From Mesorhizobium sp. STM 4661 (GTDB lineage: Bacteria; Pseudomonadota; Alphaproteobacteria; Rhizobiales; Rhizobiaceae): a DNA stretch of 64,000 nucleotides. The stretch is from positions 1 through 64,000 of the forward strand of contig NZ_CAAF010000003.1 in assembly GCF_000359125.1 (NCBI RefSeq), written 5' to 3'. The position numbers and the translations under genes are program-made. Below, piece by piece: positions 129-9,638 of the stretch (the stretch's first letter is position 1; each line of letters begins with the position of its first letter). Under the pieces are notes generated by a model. That model ran no database searches and had not been told where the DNA came from. It saw nothing but the letters and a program-made list of their open reading frames with translations.

Positions 129-1286
129 TCACCGCCCGCCGATGACGCCGATATAGTCCGACACCCAGCGATAATAGGGTACGCACTGGTTGTTCCCGGT
201 GGCGCATTTCGACACCGGCGTCTTCCAGAACTTGATCTTGTCGAAATTGTCGTAGCCGTTGGTCTTGCAGCCCTCCTCGCCGAGCAGCTCGTTGCCCTTG
301 CAGGCGGCCGGCACCACCGGCAGCGAACCGAACCAGGCGGAGACATCGCCCTGCACCTTCGGCGACAGCGAGTGCTCCAGCCACATATAGGCGCAGTTCG
401 GGTTGGCCGCGTCGGCCTCCATCATCGTGGTGTCGGCCCAGCCGGTGACGCCTTCCTCGGGCACGGTCGAAGAGACCGGCTTCTTGGCGGCAACCAGCGT
501 GTTGACCTGGTAGGGCCATGAGCCGGAAGCGACGACGCCTTCGTTCTGGAAATCGTCGACCTGGATGGCGGCGTCATGCCAGTAGCGGCCGACCAGCGTG
601 CGCTGCACGCGCAGCAGATCGAGCGCAGCCTTGTACTGGTCCTCGGTCAGCTCGTAAGGATCCTTGATGCCGAGTTCCGGCTTGTGGAACATCAGATAGT
701 TGGCGGCGTCGGCGATGTGGATCGGCCCGTCATAGGCCTGGACGCGGCCCTTGTTCGACTTGCCGTCGGGCAGGTTCATCTCCTCGAAGACGACGTTCCA
801 GCTCTTCGGCGCCTCCTTGAAGACGTCGGTGTTGTACATCAGCACGTTCGGTCCCCACTGGTAGGGCACGCCGTAATGGACGCCGTCGATCGTGAACCAG
901 GGCGCATCCTTCAGCCGGTCGTCGACCGTCTTCCAGCTCGGGATGAGATCGGTGTTGATGGGCTGGACGCGCTTGCCGGCGACAAGGCGCAGCGAGGCGT
1001 CGCCCGAAGCGGTGACGAGGTCGAAGCCGCCCTCGTTCATCAGCGCGACCATCTCGTCCGAGGTGTTGGCGGTCTTGACGTTGACCTTGCAGCCGGTGTC
1101 CTTCTCGAAGGACGTCACCCAGTCGTAGCCCTTGTCGGTTTCGCCGCGTTCGATATAGCCGGGCCAGGCGACGATGTTGACCTCGCCTTCGCCCTTGCCG
1201 AGCTCCTTGACCTGGGCGATGGCCTGGCCGGAGAAGCTCAGCGCGACCGTCAATGCAGTGCATGACTTCAGGAATGAATTCATCAT
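129..1286 (-). CDS. Polyamine-type ABC transporter solute-binding protein
   Basis: A 385-residue periplasmic binding protein of the spermidine/putrescine (PotD/PotF-like) class. The start is the ATG at 1286, preceded on the minus strand by GGGAG about 4 nt upstream. A longer frame to 1358 runs through a palindromic repeat and is unlikely. Residues 1-25 are a Sec signal peptide (FLKSCTALTVALSFSGQAIAQ region). The mature part begins with the family-like EVNIVAWPGYIERG and contains DLVTASGDAS and YGVPYQWGPNVLMYNTD, as expected for this fold. Four cysteines near the C-terminus could form disulfides. Permease and ATPase partners are not in the window and may lie beyond its left edge. The family is clear; polyamine as the ligand is inference. 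Confidence 0.88.
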   Translation of the reverse strand: MMNSFLKSCTALTVALSFSGQAIAQVKELGKGEGEVNIVAWPGYIERGETDKGYDWVTSFEKDTGCKVNVKTANTSDEMVALMNEGGFDLVTASGDASLRLVAGKRVQPINTDLIPSWKTVDDRLKDAPWFTIDGVHYGVPYQWGPNVLMYNTDVFKEAPKSWNVVFEEMNLPDGKSNKGRVQAYDGPIHIADAANYLMFHKPELGIKDPYELTEDQYKAALDLLRVQRTLVGRYWHDAAIQVDDFQNEGVVASGSWPYQVNTLVAAKKPVSSTVPEEGVTGWADTTMMEADAANPNCAYMWLEHSLSPKVQGDVSAWFGSLPVVPAACKGNELLGEEGCKTNGYDNFDKIKFWKTPVSKCATGNNQCVPYYRWVSDYIGVIGGR

Positions 1287-1301
1287 CGATCTCCCATTTT
1301 G

Positions 1302-1384
1302 GCGCATGACCCCGAAAACCGGTTTCGGTTTTCGGAAAGGGATCATGCGCAAACTCAAGATGTCAGAGCGTCCCGGCGCTCTGA
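1302..1384. repeat. RIME-like intergenic palindrome
   Basis: GCGCATGA (1302-1309) pairs with TCATGCGC (1343-1350) around a near-palindromic core, CCGAAAACCGG/TTTCGGTTTTCGG, at 1312-1335. A second stem follows: TCAGAGCG (1363-1370) with CGCTCTGA (1377-1384). This is the look of short rhizobial mosaic palindromes. It sits in the leader of the binding-protein gene, between that gene and lysR. Confidence 0.75.
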
Positions 1385-2501: not shown

Positions 2502-3278
2502 TCAGACCCCGGCTTCGCCACCGGCAATGCTGAGCCGCGCGCCCGCCTGGCCGAGTGCGGCGGCGATGTCGCGCGGTGGCGGCCGGTCGGTGGCGAGCTC
2601 GGAAAAGCCGTCGAAACCGCAAACCTGGACAAGACCCTGGCGGCCGAATTTGGTGTGGTCGGTGATGACGAGGGAACGCTGGCCGCGCGACAGTACCATG
2701 CGGGCGAATTCCGCCTCCTCCAGGTCATAATCCATGACGCCGGTGACGGCATCGACGGCGCCCGTGGAGATCACCGCGTGGCTGACGGAAAAACGGCTGA
2801 CGAATTCGATGGCCGAAACGCCGAAGGCCGCACCTGAATCGCTGCGCAACTCGCCGCCGGCCATGTAGACCTTGTTGCCGTTGACGGTGGCCAGCGTGCG
2901 GGCGATGTCGGAGGAGTTGGTGACGACCGTCAGCCGCCGGTGGCCAAGCAGTTCTCGGGCCAGGAAAGACGTCGTGGTGCCGGTGTCGAGCATGATCGAT
3001 TCGCCGTCGCGGATGGTCGTCGCGACCATGCGCGCGATCGTTCGCTTGGCATCGGCGTTTTCGCGCATGCGCCGCTCGAACGGCGCCTCGCCGACCATGG
3101 ACGACAGGCCTACCGCGCCGTGCATCTTCAGGATGGAGCCATCACTGGTGAGCGGCTTGACGTCGCGGCGCACGGTTTCCAGCGAGACGCCCAGCCGGTC
3201 GGCCAAGCTGGCGATGGTGACGGTGCCTTCCTCCTGCAGGAGACGCAGGATCTCACCATGCCGCTTCGAATGGACCAT
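2502..3278 (-). CDS. DeoR/GlpR-family transcriptional regulator
   Basis: A 258-residue DeoR-type repressor. The DeoR helix-turn-helix spans residues about 5-60 (TIASLADRLGVSLETVRRDV). The C-terminal sugar-phosphate-sensing domain shows MLDTGTTTSFLARELLGHRR, TNSSDIA and ITDHTKFGR. The chosen start is the ATG at 3278, with GGAAAG 4 nt upstream on the minus strand; an in-frame GTG at 3296 lacks such a site. It is divergent from the phosphotransferase/flavoprotein genes across a 389-bp gap with an inverted 8-bp pair. DeoR proteins usually sense phosphorylated sugars or polyols, so control of the neighbouring kinase cluster is plausible but unproven. Confidence 0.9.
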   Translation of the reverse strand: MVHSKRHGEILRLLQEEGTVTIASLADRLGVSLETVRRDVKPLTSDGSILKMHGAVGLSSMVGEAPFERRMRENADAKRTIARMVATTIRDGESIMLDTGTTTSFLARELLGHRRLTVVTNSSDIARTLATVNGNKVYMAGGELRSDSGAAFGVSAIEFVSRFSVSHAVISTGAVDAVTGVMDYDLEEAEFARMVLSRGQRSLVITDHTKFGRQGLVQVCGFDGFSELATDRPPPRDIAAALGQAGARLSIAGGEAGV

Positions 3279-3667: not shown

Positions 3668-4594
3668 ATGGCCTTGTTGAACCCCCGCCAAACGAGGGAT
3701 GAATCCTTGACTGTCGAAGACCGCATCCGCGCCCTGCCCTGTTGGACCGGCATGATCGAGATCGCGCCGCTGCCGGGCGGCCTGAGCAACGCCAACTATG
3801 TGGTCAAGGATGCGGCCGGGCGGCATGTCGTGCGCTTCGGCCAGGACTATGCGTTCCACCATGTCTTTCGCAAGCGCGAGGTGATGACGGCGCGTGCGGC
3901 GCATGCCGCCGGCTTCGCGCCGGCCGTCCGCTATGACGAACCCGGCATCCTGGTGACGGAATTTCTCGGCGCCAAGGCCTATGTCGCGGAGGATGTGCGC
4001 GCCAATATCGGCCGCGTCGCCGCCCTGATGCGCGGCTTCCACCGCGAAATGCCCAATCATGTCTCGGGCGCCGGCTTCATGTTCTGGGTGTTTCACGTCA
4101 TCCGCGACTATGCGCGCACGCTGGAGGAGGGCGGCAGCCGCAAGCTGAGCGATCTGCCGCGTTTTCTGACCTTGGCGGACGAACTGGAACGAGCGCAGAA
4201 ACTGCTGCCGATCGTCTTCGGCCACAACGATCTTTTGCCGGCAAATATTCTCGATGACGGCAACAGATTGTGGCTGATCGATTTCGAATATGCCGGTTTC
4301 AACACGGCGATGTTCGACCTTGCGGGTGCTGCCTCCAATGCCGGCCTGAGCGACGAGGAATCCTTCGCCTTCCTCACAGCCTATTTCATGATGGAACCGG
4401 ACAAGGCGATCCGCCGCTCGCACGCGGCCATGCAATGCGCGTCGCTGCTGCGCGAGGCGATGTGGAGCATGGTTTCCGAACTCTACCTCGATGCGCCCGG
4501 CATCGATTACGTTGCCTATACCGACGAAAACCTGACGCGGCTGGATGCCGCGCTGGAGAACTACAGAACAAAATACGGGATGCAGGCATCATGA
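3668..4594 (+). CDS. Choline-kinase/APH-family phosphotransferase
   Basis: A 308-residue kinase-fold phosphotransferase (aminoglycoside phosphotransferase / choline-ethanolamine kinase superfamily). It has an N-lobe with GGLSNANYVV, the Brenner-type catalytic motif GHNDLLPANIL around residue 187, and the metal-binding motif LIDFEYAG about 15 residues later. All key residues are present. The ATG at 3668 has only a weak ribosome site. A TTG 13 codons later (3707) has GAGGGA seven bases upstream and may be the true start. The stop overlaps the flavoprotein start (ATGA, 4591-4594), so the two are translationally coupled. The substrate is likely an amino alcohol or similar small hydroxyl compound; that is inference from the family and the partner gene. 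Confidence 0.85.
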   Translation: MALLNPRQTRDESLTVEDRIRALPCWTGMIEIAPLPGGLSNANYVVKDAAGRHVVRFGQDYAFHHVFRKREVMTARAAHAAGFAPAVRYDEPGILVTEFLGAKAYVAEDVRANIGRVAALMRGFHREMPNHVSGAGFMFWVFHVIRDYARTLEEGGSRKLSDLPRFLTLADELERAQKLLPIVFGHNDLLPANILDDGNRLWLIDFEYAGFNTAMFDLAGAASNAGLSDEESFAFLTAYFMMEPDKAIRRSHAAMQCASLLREAMWSMVSELYLDAPGIDYVAYTDENLTRLDAALENYRTKYGMQAS

Positions 4595-7044
4595 CCTTGC
4601 CCAGCCATGCCGAGATCGTGGTTATCGGCGGCGGCATCATCGGCTGTTCGACGGCCTATCATCTGGCGCGCGACCACAAGGCCGATGTCGTGCTCCTGGA
4701 ACAGAGCAAGCTAACCTCGGGCTCGACCTGGCACGCCGCCGGGCTGGTCGGCCAGTTGCGCTCGTCGGCCTCGATCACGCGCGTGCTCAAATATTCGGTC
4801 GATCTCTACAAGGGACTGGAGGCCGAAACCGGGCTGGCCACCGGCTGGAAGATGACAGGGTGCCTCAGGCTTGCGACCAATGCCGACCGCTGGACCGAAT
4901 ACAAGCGGCTGGCGACGACGGCGAAGAGCTTCGGCATGGACATGCAGTTGCTGTCGCCGGCCGAGGTCAAGAAGATGTGGCCGCTCCTGGAAACCGGTGA
5001 TCTCGTCGGTGCCTCCTGGTTGCCAACCGACGGCCAAGCCAGCCCCTCCGACATCACCCAGTCGCTGGCCAAGGGTGCACGCATGCATGGCGCCAGACTG
5101 TTCGAGGACGTCCGCGTCACCGGCTTCGACATGAAGCACGGCCGCATCGTCGCCGTGAAGACCAGCAAGGGCGACATTGCCTGCGACAAGGTGGTGAACT
5201 GCGCCGGGCAATGGGCGCGGCAGGTGGGGGCGCTGGCCGGCATCAACGTGCCGTTGCAGCCGGTGAAGCATCAGTACATCATCACCGAGAAGATCGAGGG
5301 GCTGGCTACCGACGCGCCGACGATCCGCGACCCGGACCGCCGCACCTATTTCAAGGAGGAGGTCGGCGGGCTGGTGATGGGCGGCTATGAGCCCAACCCG
5401 CAGGCGTGGACGACCGGCCTGCCCGGGGGCGATGTGCCCGATGACTGGGAGTTCCGGCTGTTCGGCGACGATTACGATCATTTCGAGCAGCATATGAACC
5501 AGGCGATCGCGCGGATCCCGGCGCTCGAGAGCGCCGGCGTCAAGCAGATGATCAACGGGGCGGAGGGTTTCACGCCGGACGGCAATTTCATCCTCGGCGT
5601 CGCACCGGAATGCGCCAACATGTTCGTTGGCGCCGGCTTCAATGCCTTCGGCATCGCCTCCGGCGGCGGCGCCGGCTGGGTGCTGGCGCAATGGGTGGTT
5701 GACGGCGAAGCACCGCTGGACCTGTGGGTGGTCGACATCAGGCGTTTTTCGGGCTTGCACCGCGACCGGCAATGGGTCCGCGACCGCACGCTGGAAGCCT
5801 ATGGCAAGCACTACACGATCGGCTTTCCGCATGAGGAATATCTGTCAGGCCGGCCGCGCATCGTCTCACCGCTCTATGAGCGGCTGAAGACGCACCGCGC
5901 GGTGTTCGGCTCGAAGCTCGGCTGGGAACGGCCGAACTGGTTCGCGCCCGAAGGTGTCGAGCCTGAGGACATCTATTCGATGGGCCGGCAGAACTGGTTT
6001 TCAGCCGTCGGCGACGAGCACCGGCATGTGCGCGAAAACGTCGGCATCTTCGACCAGTCGTCCTTCGCCAAATACGAAATGTCTGGCGTGGACGCGCAGA
6101 AGGCGCTGGACTGGATCTGCGCCAACGACGTCGCCAAGCCTGTCGGCCGGCTGACCTACACGCAGCTCCTCAACACGCGCGGCGGCATCGAGGCCGACCT
6201 GACGGTGGCGCGGCTCGGCGAAGAGAAATTCTACATCGTCACCGGCACCGGTTTCCGCACGCATGATTTCTCCTGGATCGGCGATCATGTCGGCAAGGAT
6301 CTCGACGTCACCCTAACCGATGTCACCGAGAATTTCGGCACGCTGTCGCTGATGGGCCCCCGCGCCCGCGATGTGCTGGCTGCGGTAACCGAGGCGGATG
6401 TGTCGAACGCCGGCTTCCCGTTCGGCCATGCGCGCGAGATTGTTGTCGCCGGCCACACGATACGGGCGCTGCGCGTCACCTATGTCGGCGAGCTCGGCTG
6501 GGAGCTGCATGTGCCGATCGCGGCGGCAGGCGAGGTCTTCGATGCGCTGATGAAAGCGGGGGAGGCACACGATATTCGCCCAGTCGGCTACCGCGCGCTG
6601 GAATCGCTGCGGTTGGAGAAGGGTTACCGCGCCTGGGGCGCCGATATCACGCCCAACGACACGCCCGAGGAGGCGGGCCTTGGGTGGGCGGTGAAGCTCA
6701 GGAAGAACACGGATTTCGTCGGCCGGCGGGCGCTTGAAAAGATCAACGGCGCGGCGCTGAAAAAACGCTTTGCCGGCTTCACGGTCGATAACCGGGAAAC
6801 CGTGCTGCTCGGACGCGAGACGATCCTGCGCAATGGCGAGCCTGTCGGTTATCTCACCAGCGGCGGCTACGGCTACACGGTCGGCAAGAACATCGGCTAT
6901 GGCTACGTGCGCAATGCCGATGGCGTCAGCGACGATTTCCTCGCCTCAGGCGACTATGAGCTGGTCGTGGCGATGGAGCGGACACCAGCGCGGATTCAGC
7001 TTCGGTCGCTTTACGATCCAGCCGGAGACAGGATCAAAGCGTAG
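4591..7044 (+). CDS. Dimethylglycine/sarcosine dehydrogenase-like flavoprotein with GcvT domains
   Basis: An 817-residue fusion enzyme. An N-terminal FAD/DAO domain (GGGIIGCSTAYHLA at about 12-25) contains SGSTWHAAGL, whose histidine matches the covalent-FAD site of dimethylglycine dehydrogenase. It is followed by an FAO central domain, a GcvT folate-binding domain from about residue 430, and a GcvT C-terminal barrel ending near RIQLRSLYDP. The length and layout fit the dimethylglycine/sarcosine dehydrogenase family, which demethylates N-methylated glycine and passes formaldehyde equivalents to tetrahydrofolate. The start at 4591 overlaps the stop of the upstream kinase gene. Coupling of this enzyme to a kinase is the odd part; the exact amine substrate is open. 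Confidence 0.9.
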   Translation: MTLPSHAEIVVIGGGIIGCSTAYHLARDHKADVVLLEQSKLTSGSTWHAAGLVGQLRSSASITRVLKYSVDLYKGLEAETGLATGWKMTGCLRLATNADRWTEYKRLATTAKSFGMDMQLLSPAEVKKMWPLLETGDLVGASWLPTDGQASPSDITQSLAKGARMHGARLFEDVRVTGFDMKHGRIVAVKTSKGDIACDKVVNCAGQWARQVGALAGINVPLQPVKHQYIITEKIEGLATDAPTIRDPDRRTYFKEEVGGLVMGGYEPNPQAWTTGLPGGDVPDDWEFRLFGDDYDHFEQHMNQAIARIPALESAGVKQMINGAEGFTPDGNFILGVAPECANMFVGAGFNAFGIASGGGAGWVLAQWVVDGEAPLDLWVVDIRRFSGLHRDRQWVRDRTLEAYGKHYTIGFPHEEYLSGRPRIVSPLYERLKTHRAVFGSKLGWERPNWFAPEGVEPEDIYSMGRQNWFSAVGDEHRHVRENVGIFDQSSFAKYEMSGVDAQKALDWICANDVAKPVGRLTYTQLLNTRGGIEADLTVARLGEEKFYIVTGTGFRTHDFSWIGDHVGKDLDVTLTDVTENFGTLSLMGPRARDVLAAVTEADVSNAGFPFGHAREIVVAGHTIRALRVTYVGELGWELHVPIAAAGEVFDALMKAGEAHDIRPVGYRALESLRLEKGYRAWGADITPNDTPEEAGLGWAVKLRKNTDFVGRRALEKINGAALKKRFAGFTVDNRETVLLGRETILRNGEPVGYLTSGGYGYTVGKNIGYGYVRNADGVSDDFLASGDYELVVAMERTPARIQLRSLYDPAGDRIKA

Positions 7045-7046
7045 AT

Positions 7047-7679
7047 TCAGCTCACGCGCAGAACGAGGCCGCGGCTGGGCACGGTATCCGTCTCACCCGG
7101 CATCGAGACATAGGGCGGCGTTTCCTCGGCGCGCTCTATGACGCTCTTCGCCTCGAGCTCGGCCATCCGCACGGCAAATCCCGCATCCCACAGCGTGTTC
7201 TTGACCGTCAGCACGATCACGCCGCCCGGCCGGCAGATGCGGATCAGTTCGTCCAGCCCCTCGACGCCGACATGGCCCGAGGTAAAGACGCCGGCCGATA
7301 CGATCCCGGCATAGGCACCGTCGGCGAAAGGCAGCGGCCCGCCGAGCGCCAGGCAATGCAGCGCCGAATAGACGCCCTTGCGCTTGGCCTGGGCCAGCAT
7401 GCCGGCGGAAATGTCGAGTGCCTCGACCTTGGGATAGCCGGTAATGGCAAGCCATTCGCCGATGAGGCCGGTGCCGGCTCCGGCATCGAGCAGCGGCGCC
7501 GCGCCGCGCGGCAGATGGCGGGCCAGCAAGGCAAGGCAGATGGTTGGATGACGATAACCAGCCGCCGACATGTCGGCATCGTAGGTGTCGGACCAGCTGT
7601 CATAGAGGGCCGCCACGTCCTCGGGCCGCTTTGCCGCATAGGCAGCGGCGAGCGGGCCTTTGTTTTTCTTGTCCGTCAT
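7047..7679 (-). CDS. SAM-dependent class I methyltransferase
   Basis: A 210-residue methyltransferase with motif I LLDAGAGTGLIGEWL near residue 60, an acidic motif II (VEALDIS) and a post-motif proline/glycine-rich segment (RICRPGGVIVLTV). The N-terminus YDSWSDTYDADM resembles Williams-Beuren-type or UbiE-like small-molecule methyltransferases. The start is taken as the ATG at 7679; an ATG at 7709 with GGATGG upstream would add ten residues. It ends 2 bp from the flavoprotein gene, tail to tail, and is divergent from the second phosphotransferase gene. The substrate is unknown. Confidence 0.85.
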   Translation of the reverse strand: MTDKKNKGPLAAAYAAKRPEDVAALYDSWSDTYDADMSAAGYRHPTICLALLARHLPRGAAPLLDAGAGTGLIGEWLAITGYPKVEALDISAGMLAQAKRKGVYSALHCLALGGPLPFADGAYAGIVSAGVFTSGHVGVEGLDELIRICRPGGVIVLTVKNTLWDAGFAVRMAELEAKSVIERAEETPPYVSMPGETDTVPSRGLVLRVS

Positions 7680-7793
7680 CCAGTCCCGTCCGCCGACTCG
7701 TGGGCTCATACGCCATCCGAATGATAGCCAAATGGCGAAAATTGTGGAACCGTCGCCGCGAGAAAATAACGCTTTGGGAGGAGGGGCGACGCG

Positions 7794-8696
7794 ATGGTGG
7801 TTAACGAGGCGCGCGCGAGGCTTGCGGCCATTCCGGTGCTGGCCGGCTATGACGGGCCGCTGGAACGCCTCGGCGGCCTCACCAACCTCGTCTTCAAGGC
7901 CGGAGATGTCTGCCTGCGCATCCCCGGCAAGGGCACAGAGGAATATATCAACCGCGCCAATGAGGCGGTGGCGGCGCAGGAAGCCGCCAGGGCCGGGGTC
8001 AGCCCCGAGGTGCTGCATGCCGACGGCAAGACGGGCGTGATGGTGACGCGGTTCATCGCCGGCGCCGAGACGATGTCGCCGGAAAAGTTCAAGACCCGGC
8101 CGGGCAGTCCGGGGCGTGCCGGCGAGGCCTTCCGCAAGCTGCATGGATCGGGTGCGGTCTTCCCCTTTCGCTTCGAGCTGTTTGCGATGATCGACGACTA
8201 TCTGAAGGTGCTGTCGACCAAGGACGTCACCCTGCCCGCCGGATACCACGACGTGGTGCGCGAGGCCGAAACCGTGCGGGCTGCGCTGGCCGCGCATCCG
8301 CTGCCGCTTGTCGCCTGCCATTGCGATCCGCTGTGCGAAAACTTCCTCGATACGGGCGAGCGGATGTGGATCGTCGACTGGGAGTATTGCGGCATGAACG
8401 ATCCGCTCTGGGACCTCGGCGACCTCAGCGTCGAAGGACAGTTCGATAGGGCGCAAGACGAAGAGATGATGCGCGCCTATTTCGGCGGCGAGCCTTCGCC
8501 GGCCGAGCGCGGCCGTGTCGTCGTCTACAAGGCGATGTGCGACCTCTTGTGGACGCTGTGGGGGCTGATCCAGCTTGCCAACAACAATCCGGTCGACGAT
8601 TTCCGCGCCTATGCCGACGGCCGCTTCGCACGCTGCAAGGCGCTGATGGAGACGCCAGAGTTTTCAAGGCATCTGGCGGCAGTGCGTGCGGGTTAG
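7794..8696 (+). CDS. Second choline-kinase-like phosphotransferase
   Basis: A 300-residue APH/choline-kinase-family protein with GGLTNLVFKAGDVCLRIPG in the N-lobe, catalytic CHCDPLCENFL and metal-binding WIVDWEYCGMNDPLWDLGDL. It is a different branch from the kinase at 3668-4594; the WDLGDLS segment is typical of LicA/choline-kinase-like proteins. A strong GGGAGGAGGGG lies just upstream of the ATG. It is transcribed away from the methyltransferase gene across a 114-bp gap. Choline or a related amino alcohol is the most reasonable substrate, by family only. Confidence 0.87.
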   Translation: MVVNEARARLAAIPVLAGYDGPLERLGGLTNLVFKAGDVCLRIPGKGTEEYINRANEAVAAQEAARAGVSPEVLHADGKTGVMVTRFIAGAETMSPEKFKTRPGSPGRAGEAFRKLHGSGAVFPFRFELFAMIDDYLKVLSTKDVTLPAGYHDVVREAETVRAALAAHPLPLVACHCDPLCENFLDTGERMWIVDWEYCGMNDPLWDLGDLSVEGQFDRAQDEEMMRAYFGGEPSPAERGRVVVYKAMCDLLWTLWGLIQLANNNPVDDFRAYADGRFARCKALMETPEFSRHLAAVRAG

Positions 8697-8714: not shown

Positions 8715-9638
8715 TCAGTTCACGCCCTTCGGCACGTTCTCCGGCGGCACCACCGTATCGACCACCTTCTGACGGTGGAAGATGAACATACCGGCCAGCA
8801 CGATCACGCCGGAGCCGATCAGGATGCGTGGGCTGGGAATGTCGCCGAAGAACACCAGCCCGAAGACCACCGCCCACAGGAGCAGCGTGTAGTGCAGCGG
8901 CGCTAGCGTCGAGGCCGGCGCCAGCTTCAGCGCCCTGGTGATCATCAGATGCGCGCCGCAGGAGACGATGCCGAGCAGCAGCATGGCGCCGAAATCGAGC
9001 GCGGACGGCGTCTGCCAGTTGCCGATGGTCAGCACCGCGCCGACCAGCAGCGTGCCGATGGTTTGCCAGGTGACGAGCGAGGTGTCGCTGGTGCCACGCA
9101 GCCGGCGGTTGAGGATGATGGCGAAGGCGAAGGAAATGCTCCCGACCAGTGCGAAGGCCGACGACAGCGAAAACGCGGCCGAGGATGGCTTCAGCATGAT
9201 CAGCACGCCGCAGAAGCCGACCAGGATCGCCATCCAGCGCCGCCAGCCGACCTTTTCGCCGAGCAGAAGATGGGAAAGTGCGGCAACATAGATCGGCCCT
9301 GCCATGTAGAAGCTCATCACGTCGGCGAGCGGCAGATAGACAACGGCGGCGTAGAACAGCGCGGTGTCGAGCGTCGTCATGACGACGCGCAAAAGCTGCA
9401 GTTCAAGGCGCTCCATCCGGAACAACTTGGCCGTACCTTGATGCGCGATCATTGGGCCGAGCACGAAAAAGGCGCCCACGGAACGGATCAGCACGACCTG
9501 GCCGACCGAAAAGCTGGCGACCAGCCATTTGCCCATCGCGTCGTTCAACGCAAACAGGAAATCGCCGGCCAGCATCAACAGAATGCCCGCCAGCAGCACA
9601 TTCCTGACCGTCGGATTCTGGGCTATCGGCTGTGCCAT
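8715..9638 (-). CDS. EamA/DMT-superfamily membrane transporter
   Basis: A 307-residue protein with about ten hydrophobic segments in two EamA repeats (first from VLLAGILLMLAGDFLFALND, second from ALVGSISFAFAIILNRRLRG). This is the usual length and layout of drug/metabolite exporters of the inner membrane. It ends 18 bp from the second phosphotransferase gene, tail to tail. The substrate cannot be inferred. Confidence 0.88.
   Translation of the reverse strand: MAQPIAQNPTVRNVLLAGILLMLAGDFLFALNDAMGKWLVASFSVGQVVLIRSVGAFFVLGPMIAHQGTAKLFRMERLELQLLRVVMTTLDTALFYAAVVYLPLADVMSFYMAGPIYVAALSHLLLGEKVGWRRWMAILVGFCGVLIMLKPSSAAFSLSSAFALVGSISFAFAIILNRRLRGTSDTSLVTWQTIGTLLVGAVLTIGNWQTPSALDFGAMLLLGIVSCGAHLMITRALKLAPASTLAPLHYTLLLWAVVFGLVFFGDIPSPRILIGSGVIVLAGMFIFHRQKVVDTVVPPENVPKGVN

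Follow-up and report, generated by a model that had tools for sequence, protein, structure and literature searches.

A small-molecule kinase gene (K1) was found coupled to a gene for a DMGDH-type demethylase (DHa) in a 64,000-nucleotide stretch of Mesorhizobium sp. STM 4661 (the window; contig C87 of genome G000), and comparison with related loci indicated that the pair is a real, conserved kinase-coupled demethylation unit, the likely role of which is catabolism of methylated ethanolamines. As the best full explanation, K1 and DHa would form a coupled two-step unit for catabolism of N-methylethanolamine and/or N,N-dimethylethanolamine, a reading to which we attach about an even chance. It draws on gene families, catalytic residues, operon conservation, neighbours and pocket substitutions, all taken from sequence, and what we infer beyond these concerns the substrate, the order of the steps, the role of the phosphate and the effector of the DeoR regulator. 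The genes of the window considered here are:

2502..3278 (end approximate), minus strand: DeoR/GlpR-family regulator (Pfam DeoRC and HTH_DeoR), divergent from K1
3668..4594, plus strand: K1, choline/ethanolamine-kinase-like small-molecule kinase (Pfam APH/Choline_kinase)
4591..7044, plus strand: DHa, DMGDH-type FAD/tetrahydrofolate demethylase (Pfam DAO, FAO_M, GCV_T and GCV_T_C)
7047..7709 (end approximate), minus strand: class I SAM methyltransferase (Methyltransf_11/25), facultative
7794..8696, plus strand: K2, second kinase with a LicA-type choline pocket (Pfam Choline_kinase/APH)
8715..9638, minus strand: EamA-family transporter (Pfam EamA)

The start of K1, for which M. metallidurans provided the closest named relative (97% identity), is uncertain, and homologues point to 3707. 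The ATGA overlap between the first kinase and the flavoprotein, described earlier in a sequence-only reading, was exact, with the TGA of K1 at 4592–4594 and the ATG of DHa at 4591–4593. The second, distinct kinase of that reading was also confirmed, as K2 was only 28% identical to K1 and each kinase formed one clade (SH-aLRT 100 each; tree of 114 rows). The methyltransferase counted to the same group is indeed present between DHa and K2, but it lies on the minus strand, divergent from K2, and thus outside the K1-DHa transcript. This orientation, the facultative tie of the methyltransferase to K2, the DeoR regulator and an importer described below had been missed. The EamA transporter (cluster F8) adjoins the unit in Mesorhizobium and kin of the same family, and was found near K1 in 8 of the 47 loci of an earlier, first panel and also in L189. 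At the contig edge, the window contains a YdcS-like ABC substrate-binding protein (129–1358, minus strand; 655 bits, below the NCBIfam cut-off of 725), the cluster of which was found near K1 in Mesorhizobium-type loci (7/47 of the first panel).

Conservation was assessed in a panel of 89 K1 loci from Alphaproteobacteria, consisting of 79 loci (L113–L152 and L159–L198 without L197), six annotated plasmid records (L153–L158), three named loci (L033, L086 and L097) and the window. The panel was picked by hand with about one to two K1 matches per genus, and it is therefore non-random and contains K1 in every locus by construction. Since genes were labelled by phmmer against single references, presence counts are lower bounds; the DeoR gene of L156 was missed although annotated. 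A DMGDH-type gene was found downstream of K1, on the same strand and within 400 bp, in 70 of the 89 loci, and ATGA and GTGA overlaps were found in 28 and 4 of 71 K1-dehydrogenase pairs, respectively, which together show a pairing beyond chance. The remaining 19 loci included two with an end too close to judge (L143 and L186), two with the dehydrogenase-K1 order reversed (L183 and L187), one with the dehydrogenase gene approximately 700 bp beyond K1 (L130) and three with the dehydrogenase more distant or on the opposite strand (L171, L173 and L126), while 11 of the 89 were without a dehydrogenase labelled by phmmer, which counts against coupling. The sequence-only reading had proposed a search for kinase-flavoprotein coupling across Rhizobiales and named lack of conservation as the result that would speak against it; the coupling was found to be kept across Alphaproteobacteria, beyond Rhizobiales. 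DeoR was labelled upstream of K1 in 49/89 loci, divergently in 48, and a substrate-binding protein (SBP) with a fused permease in 41/89. From these comparisons the common operon consists of a divergent DeoR gene, a TmoX-like amine importer, K1 and DHa, with a second dehydrogenase (DHb) and K2 as optional members; the regulator facing K1 belongs to the conserved unit.

K1 matches at E ≤ 1e-15 were present in 100 of 297 genomes of the order, five of which (G002, G004, G100, G104 and G224) showed only weak matches in the range of K2, leaving K1 proper in 95/297. K1 was detected in 42 of 385 genomes drawn from the class (E ≤ 1e-35) and in 22 of 398 drawn from the phylum (E ≤ 1e-30), the latter all related to the window at class level or more closely. 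On a plasmid filed under Roseateles (NZ_CP084753.1, 188636–189496), a K1 was found with 61.3% identity to the query, about the value for Shinella, reflecting either transfer or a mislabelled record. K1-DHa together with ETF was also found in two genomes of 1.4 Mb (G553, locus L179; G326, locus L180), the latter locus carrying a TmoX-like SBP, ETF-QO and a GMC oxidoreductase as well. Beside K1, a molybdenum hydroxylase gene set was observed in L144 (4044–7893), L198 (5055–8922) and L131 (10174–14085), assigned by Pfam for L144 only and by clustering and gene sizes for the other two, which were without a labelled DHa.

The SBP of the common operon showed TmoX as its best solved relative (4XZ6, E 2.3e-79). 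The TMAO pocket of TmoX is made up of W55, W102, F106, E131, W177, F220 and W222, and both TmoX proteins bind choline too (PMC8918994). All 43 SBPs compared kept W55, W102, E131 and W177, whereas F106 was replaced by Gly in 39 and Ala in 4, and F220 and W222 by W and Y, respectively, in 43/43; three of the seven positions of the TMAO box were thus changed in every SBP. The window itself is without a TmoX-like importer. Elsewhere in its genome, contig C58 encodes an SBP (61% identical) with the same three positions changed (Ala at 106) and an adjoining ATPase and fused permease, and C5 a second SBP (41% identical) with a different box. The presence of one box, larger than for TMAO, in all 43 SBPs suggests one slightly larger methylated amine as ligand, although a TmoX-type box would equally suit a quaternary amine. 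The genes preceding K1 in five loci without SBP were considered as importers and rejected, as Pfam assigned them to a thioredoxin-like protein, a chemotaxis receptor and an AMP-binding protein, with two unmatched.

DHa showed the full DMGDH architecture, with DAO, FAO_M, GCV_T and GCV_T_C all above gathering score, and aligned near full length with human DMGDH (5L46), its best solved relative, and with Arthrobacter DMGO, the His225/Tyr259 pair of which is named in PMC5082570. H47 (covalent FAD), H226 and Y252 (numbering without start Met) were kept in 72/72 DHa rows, dehydrogenase rows below 700 aa being excluded from this residue count only, and 12 DHb rows kept the His/Tyr pair. ETF genes were found in 3 of the 89 loci, and ETF-QO adjoins in L180. 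An Arg near the flavin-binding His of DHa was considered as a phosphate binder and dropped, since by sequence it is indistinguishable from a carboxylate binder. The natural substrate of DHa is probably not dimethylglycine.

The two kinases differed in their putative pockets. The choline pocket of LicA consists of Thr29, Asp176, Val178, Tyr197, Glu213, Trp251, Trp254 and Tyr268 (PMC4364537). K1, in which H186, D188, N193 and D205 were invariant among 36 aligned sequences, retained D176 (89/89), W254 (89/89), Y268 (87/89) and Y197 (85/89), but carried Glu at W251 and Asn at E213 in 87 of 89 rows and thus did not show the LicA choline pocket. The two rows without this Glu were L185 and L186, both without a dehydrogenase label and the latter near a contig end, while most other K1 lacking a dehydrogenase retained it. 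A Glu inside the aromatic ammonium cage, as predicted for K1, fits an amine able to carry a proton. Such protonatable amines can be oxidised by a flavin amine dehydrogenase, whereas quaternary amines cannot by that route. K2 kept the choline pocket in every row with a letter at the position concerned (24 to 26 of 26 rows), except for Leu at V178 in 26/26, and its best solved relatives were 3dxq (E 2.3e-187) and LicA 4r77 (E 3.9e-29).

Some of these results would agree with ordinary choline/betaine catabolism, in which DHa and DHb would simply be dimethylglycine/sarcosine dehydrogenases and the kinases would serve elsewhere as choline kinases: DMGDH and choline kinases were the best solved relatives, K2 retains the choline pocket, and choline binding is documented for the TmoX proteins (PMC8918994). 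We consider this improbable, because K1 has lost two choline-pocket positions family-wide, the fixed coupling of kinase and flavoprotein would be pointless, and none of the annotated K1 loci examined showed an annotation for betaine demethylase or betaine-homocysteine methyltransferase. The best NCBIfam model for both kinases was the guanitoxin kinase GntI (NF041256), which K1 and K2 matched with 115 and 154 bits, far under the cut-off of 357. Together with the binding of an N-oxide by TmoX (PMC8918994), this match could point to K1 phosphorylating an N-oxide oxygen as leaving group, followed by a Polonovski-like methyl loss in which DHa catches the carbon. Such a mechanism is very hard to credit, as the GntI scores mirror superfamily kinship only and the amine-oxidising His/Tyr pair of DHa is intact.

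Neighbouring genes provided clues to the substrate. Salipiger abyssi carries in a single run genes for an IMPase, DeoR, the importer, K1, DHa, ETF, FolD and PurU (the last two being one-carbon partners of DHa), followed by an amidohydrolase, a GS-like protein, ALDH, Fe-ADH, SHMT, L-serine ammonia-lyase and a HAD hydrolase, which reads as a putative full route from ethanolamine through glycine and serine to pyruvate by way of the gamma-glutamyl ethanolamine route. The same amidohydrolase, GS, ALDH and Fe-ADH genes, with RpiR and a TRAP importer, make up the ethanolamine cluster of Phaeobacter, which is raised on phosphatidylethanolamine (PMC10132767), and the K1-bearing genome G256 has this TRAP layout elsewhere. 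Contig C8 of the window genome (L208) carries clustered RpiR, amidohydrolase, amino-acid-type permease, GS-like, ALDH and Fe-ADH genes, a predicted ethanolamine-route set. In Nitratireductor OM-1 and in G454, the gene immediately after K1-DHa encodes EutH, and G454 was the only class genome among 385 to match EutH at E ≤ 1e-40; none was found among 297 order genomes at E ≤ 1e-60, a search set without positive control. The Nitratireductor and G454 loci group as sisters in the K1 tree and thus probably reflect one event, and EutH, occurring in few genomes, was rejected as a general partner of K1. The EutH genes of one Paracoccus and one Sphingobium plasmid adjoin neither eut genes nor K1. The Salipiger-type GS was present in 21 of 48 K1-positive and 8 of 48 K1-negative genomes (Fisher p 0.007, without correction for kinship or genome size), a weak enrichment given that the K1-negative genomes were chosen by hand and include several small ones.

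Taken together, the neighbours favour, at the level of prediction, an ethanolamine-type N-methylated amino alcohol rather than an acid, and a sequence in which phosphorylation comes first, demethylation second and removal of the phosphate last. The proposal of a pathway joining a kinase to oxidative demethylation, which the sequence-only reading had left open as to alcohol or acid and as to before or after, thereby gained comparative support from the conserved operon and its neighbour genes. It is rather unlikely that another hydroxylated methylamine, such as a methylated aminopropanol, demethylated carnitine, an N-methyl amino sugar or a plant alkaloid, is phosphorylated and then demethylated. 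Such a scaffold would suit the other transport genes of some loci, namely L113, where a MocA-family protein accompanies a sugar-type ABC set, and f27 loci, where an ABC set (type judged by eye) follows DHa. In the f27 loci L132 and L145, K1-DHa follows on from an amidohydrolase-like gene, GS, ALDH and Fe-ADH, but this GS matched the Salipiger GS with only 240 and 247 bits (458–680 in other genomes), no match to the Salipiger GS was found at E ≤ 1e-90 in three f27 genomes, and relatives of the f27 GS on two plasmids adjoin spermidine/putrescine-type ABC genes. With a GS of another subfamily, the relatives of which adjoin polyamine-type importers, these loci count little for ethanolamine and were discarded as strong evidence. 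DeoR regulators, moreover, often sense sugar phosphates. Against another scaffold, the Salipiger run and the EutH loci point to ethanolamine, and an importer box in which six of the seven residues never vary and the seventh is G/A, in 43/43 SBPs, argues for one small ligand.

A phosphatase gene was found at the unit in 14 of the 89 loci (11 IMPase, 3 HAD), the IMPase-type genes lying on several branches; three scanned IMPases were HisN-like but below the HisN cut-off. That a single catabolic unit encodes both a kinase and a phosphatase suggests that the phosphate is temporary, whereas the 75 loci, including the window, without a phosphatase labelled by phmmer (presence counts being lower bounds) count against dephosphorylation. 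In such loci general phosphatases could serve, or phosphoethanolamine could be used as such; the best IMPase in the window genome was 39% identical. A pair of genes for a HAD hydrolase and a class I glutamine amidotransferase was observed in L192 (12513–14141), L134 (4167–5792) and L174 (12143–13774), conserved within or ending K2-bearing operons. Choline/ethanolamine kinases normally supply lipid synthesis, and the sequence fixes no step order, so DHa might instead demethylate the free amino alcohol and K1 phosphorylate ethanolamine for phospholipid head groups. We give this reversed order little probability, since the adjoining phosphatases and the gamma-glutamyl route would undo it; that K1 precedes DHa in 70/89 loci is weak evidence in the same direction, the order being reversed in L183 and L187.

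According to the preferred reading, methylated ethanolamine would be imported by the TmoX-like ABC importer, which adjoins K1 in many relatives and is encoded on C58 in the window genome, or by EutH in one lineage. K1 would phosphorylate the hydroxyl of the N-methylated ethanolamine, giving the amino alcohol an anionic end in place of the carboxylate that DMGDH-type enzymes normally meet. DHa would then oxidise an N-methyl group, with the carbon passing to tetrahydrofolate and the electrons to ETF, and the resulting phosphoethanolamine would be dephosphorylated by the IMPase- or HAD-type phosphatase where encoded, with ethanolamine entering the gamma-glutamyl route to glycine. The DeoR protein would sense a phosphorylated intermediate. 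That the phosphate acts as a temporary handle, with a K1 of re-tuned pocket making carboxylate mimics which DHa demethylates onto tetrahydrofolate before the phosphate is removed, and that this logic extends to Alphaproteobacteria with streamlined 1.4-Mb genomes, is a tentative proposal that we hold at slightly less than an even chance.

For K2, DHb and METHYLTRANSFERASE, K2 was found in 26 loci, one of them (L188) with a fragment; of these loci, 14 carried DHb and 9 the divergent methyltransferase, never the two together, and 3 had neither. DHb and K2 may serve a different methylation state, and where they are present the pathway would take in a second methyl group or an additional substrate. 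The methyltransferase (best solved relative METTL27, 7qcb) always occurred with K2, and was rejected as a core part because of its presence in 9/89 loci only, its opposite strand and its METTL27 relationship. A methylating enzyme thus stands where K2 loci otherwise have the demethylating DHb.

If the proposal is true, the unit would follow a metabolic logic of its own, with phosphorylation, oxidative demethylation and dephosphorylation in turn, and represent an undescribed aerobic sink for methylated ethanolamines, the long form providing two kinase-demethylase pairs, one per methyl group. N-methylated ethanolamines are membrane-lipid head groups and breakdown products. An aerobic tetrahydrofolate-linked route for these compounds would tie the one-carbon and nitrogen metabolism of soil rhizobia to the turnover of lipids, and, judging from the loci of Ruegeria and Salipiger, it would do so in marine bacteria as well. 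It would further suggest a role for the orphan structural-genomics structure 3DXQ, a K2 relative, and for many genes labelled only 'phosphotransferase' or 'FAD-dependent oxidoreductase'. The earlier suggestion that such a pathway may be undescribed agrees with our search, in which the best-ranked papers (the top 1 to 25 of up to 901, mainly open-access) showed no sign of an account of coupling between a kinase and a DMGDH-type enzyme, or of demethylation of phosphorylated methylethanolamines.

Compared to known systems, DHa shares its domain order, the covalent-FAD His and the His225/Tyr259 pair with DMGDH and DMGO (5L46 and 1PJ5), and differs from them by its conserved kinase partner. K1 and K2 share family and catalytic motif with the LicA-type choline kinase (4R77; PMC4364537), K2 also the pocket, whereas K1 differs by the Glu at cage Trp251 and the Asn at Glu213. 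The operon SBP and the C58 copy have W55, W102, E131 and W177 in common with the TmoXWV importer (4XZ6; PMC8918994), from which the operon SBP is distinguished by its substitutions at F106, F220 and W222 and by its tie to K1-DHa. Finally, the Phaeobacter EtoVWX gamma-glutamyl cluster (PMC10132767) shares the amidohydrolase, GS-like, ALDH and Fe-ADH genes with the Salipiger K1-DHa run; there, 'kinase' is a word used just two times and in unrelated senses, which sets the cluster as described there apart from the K1-DHa unit.
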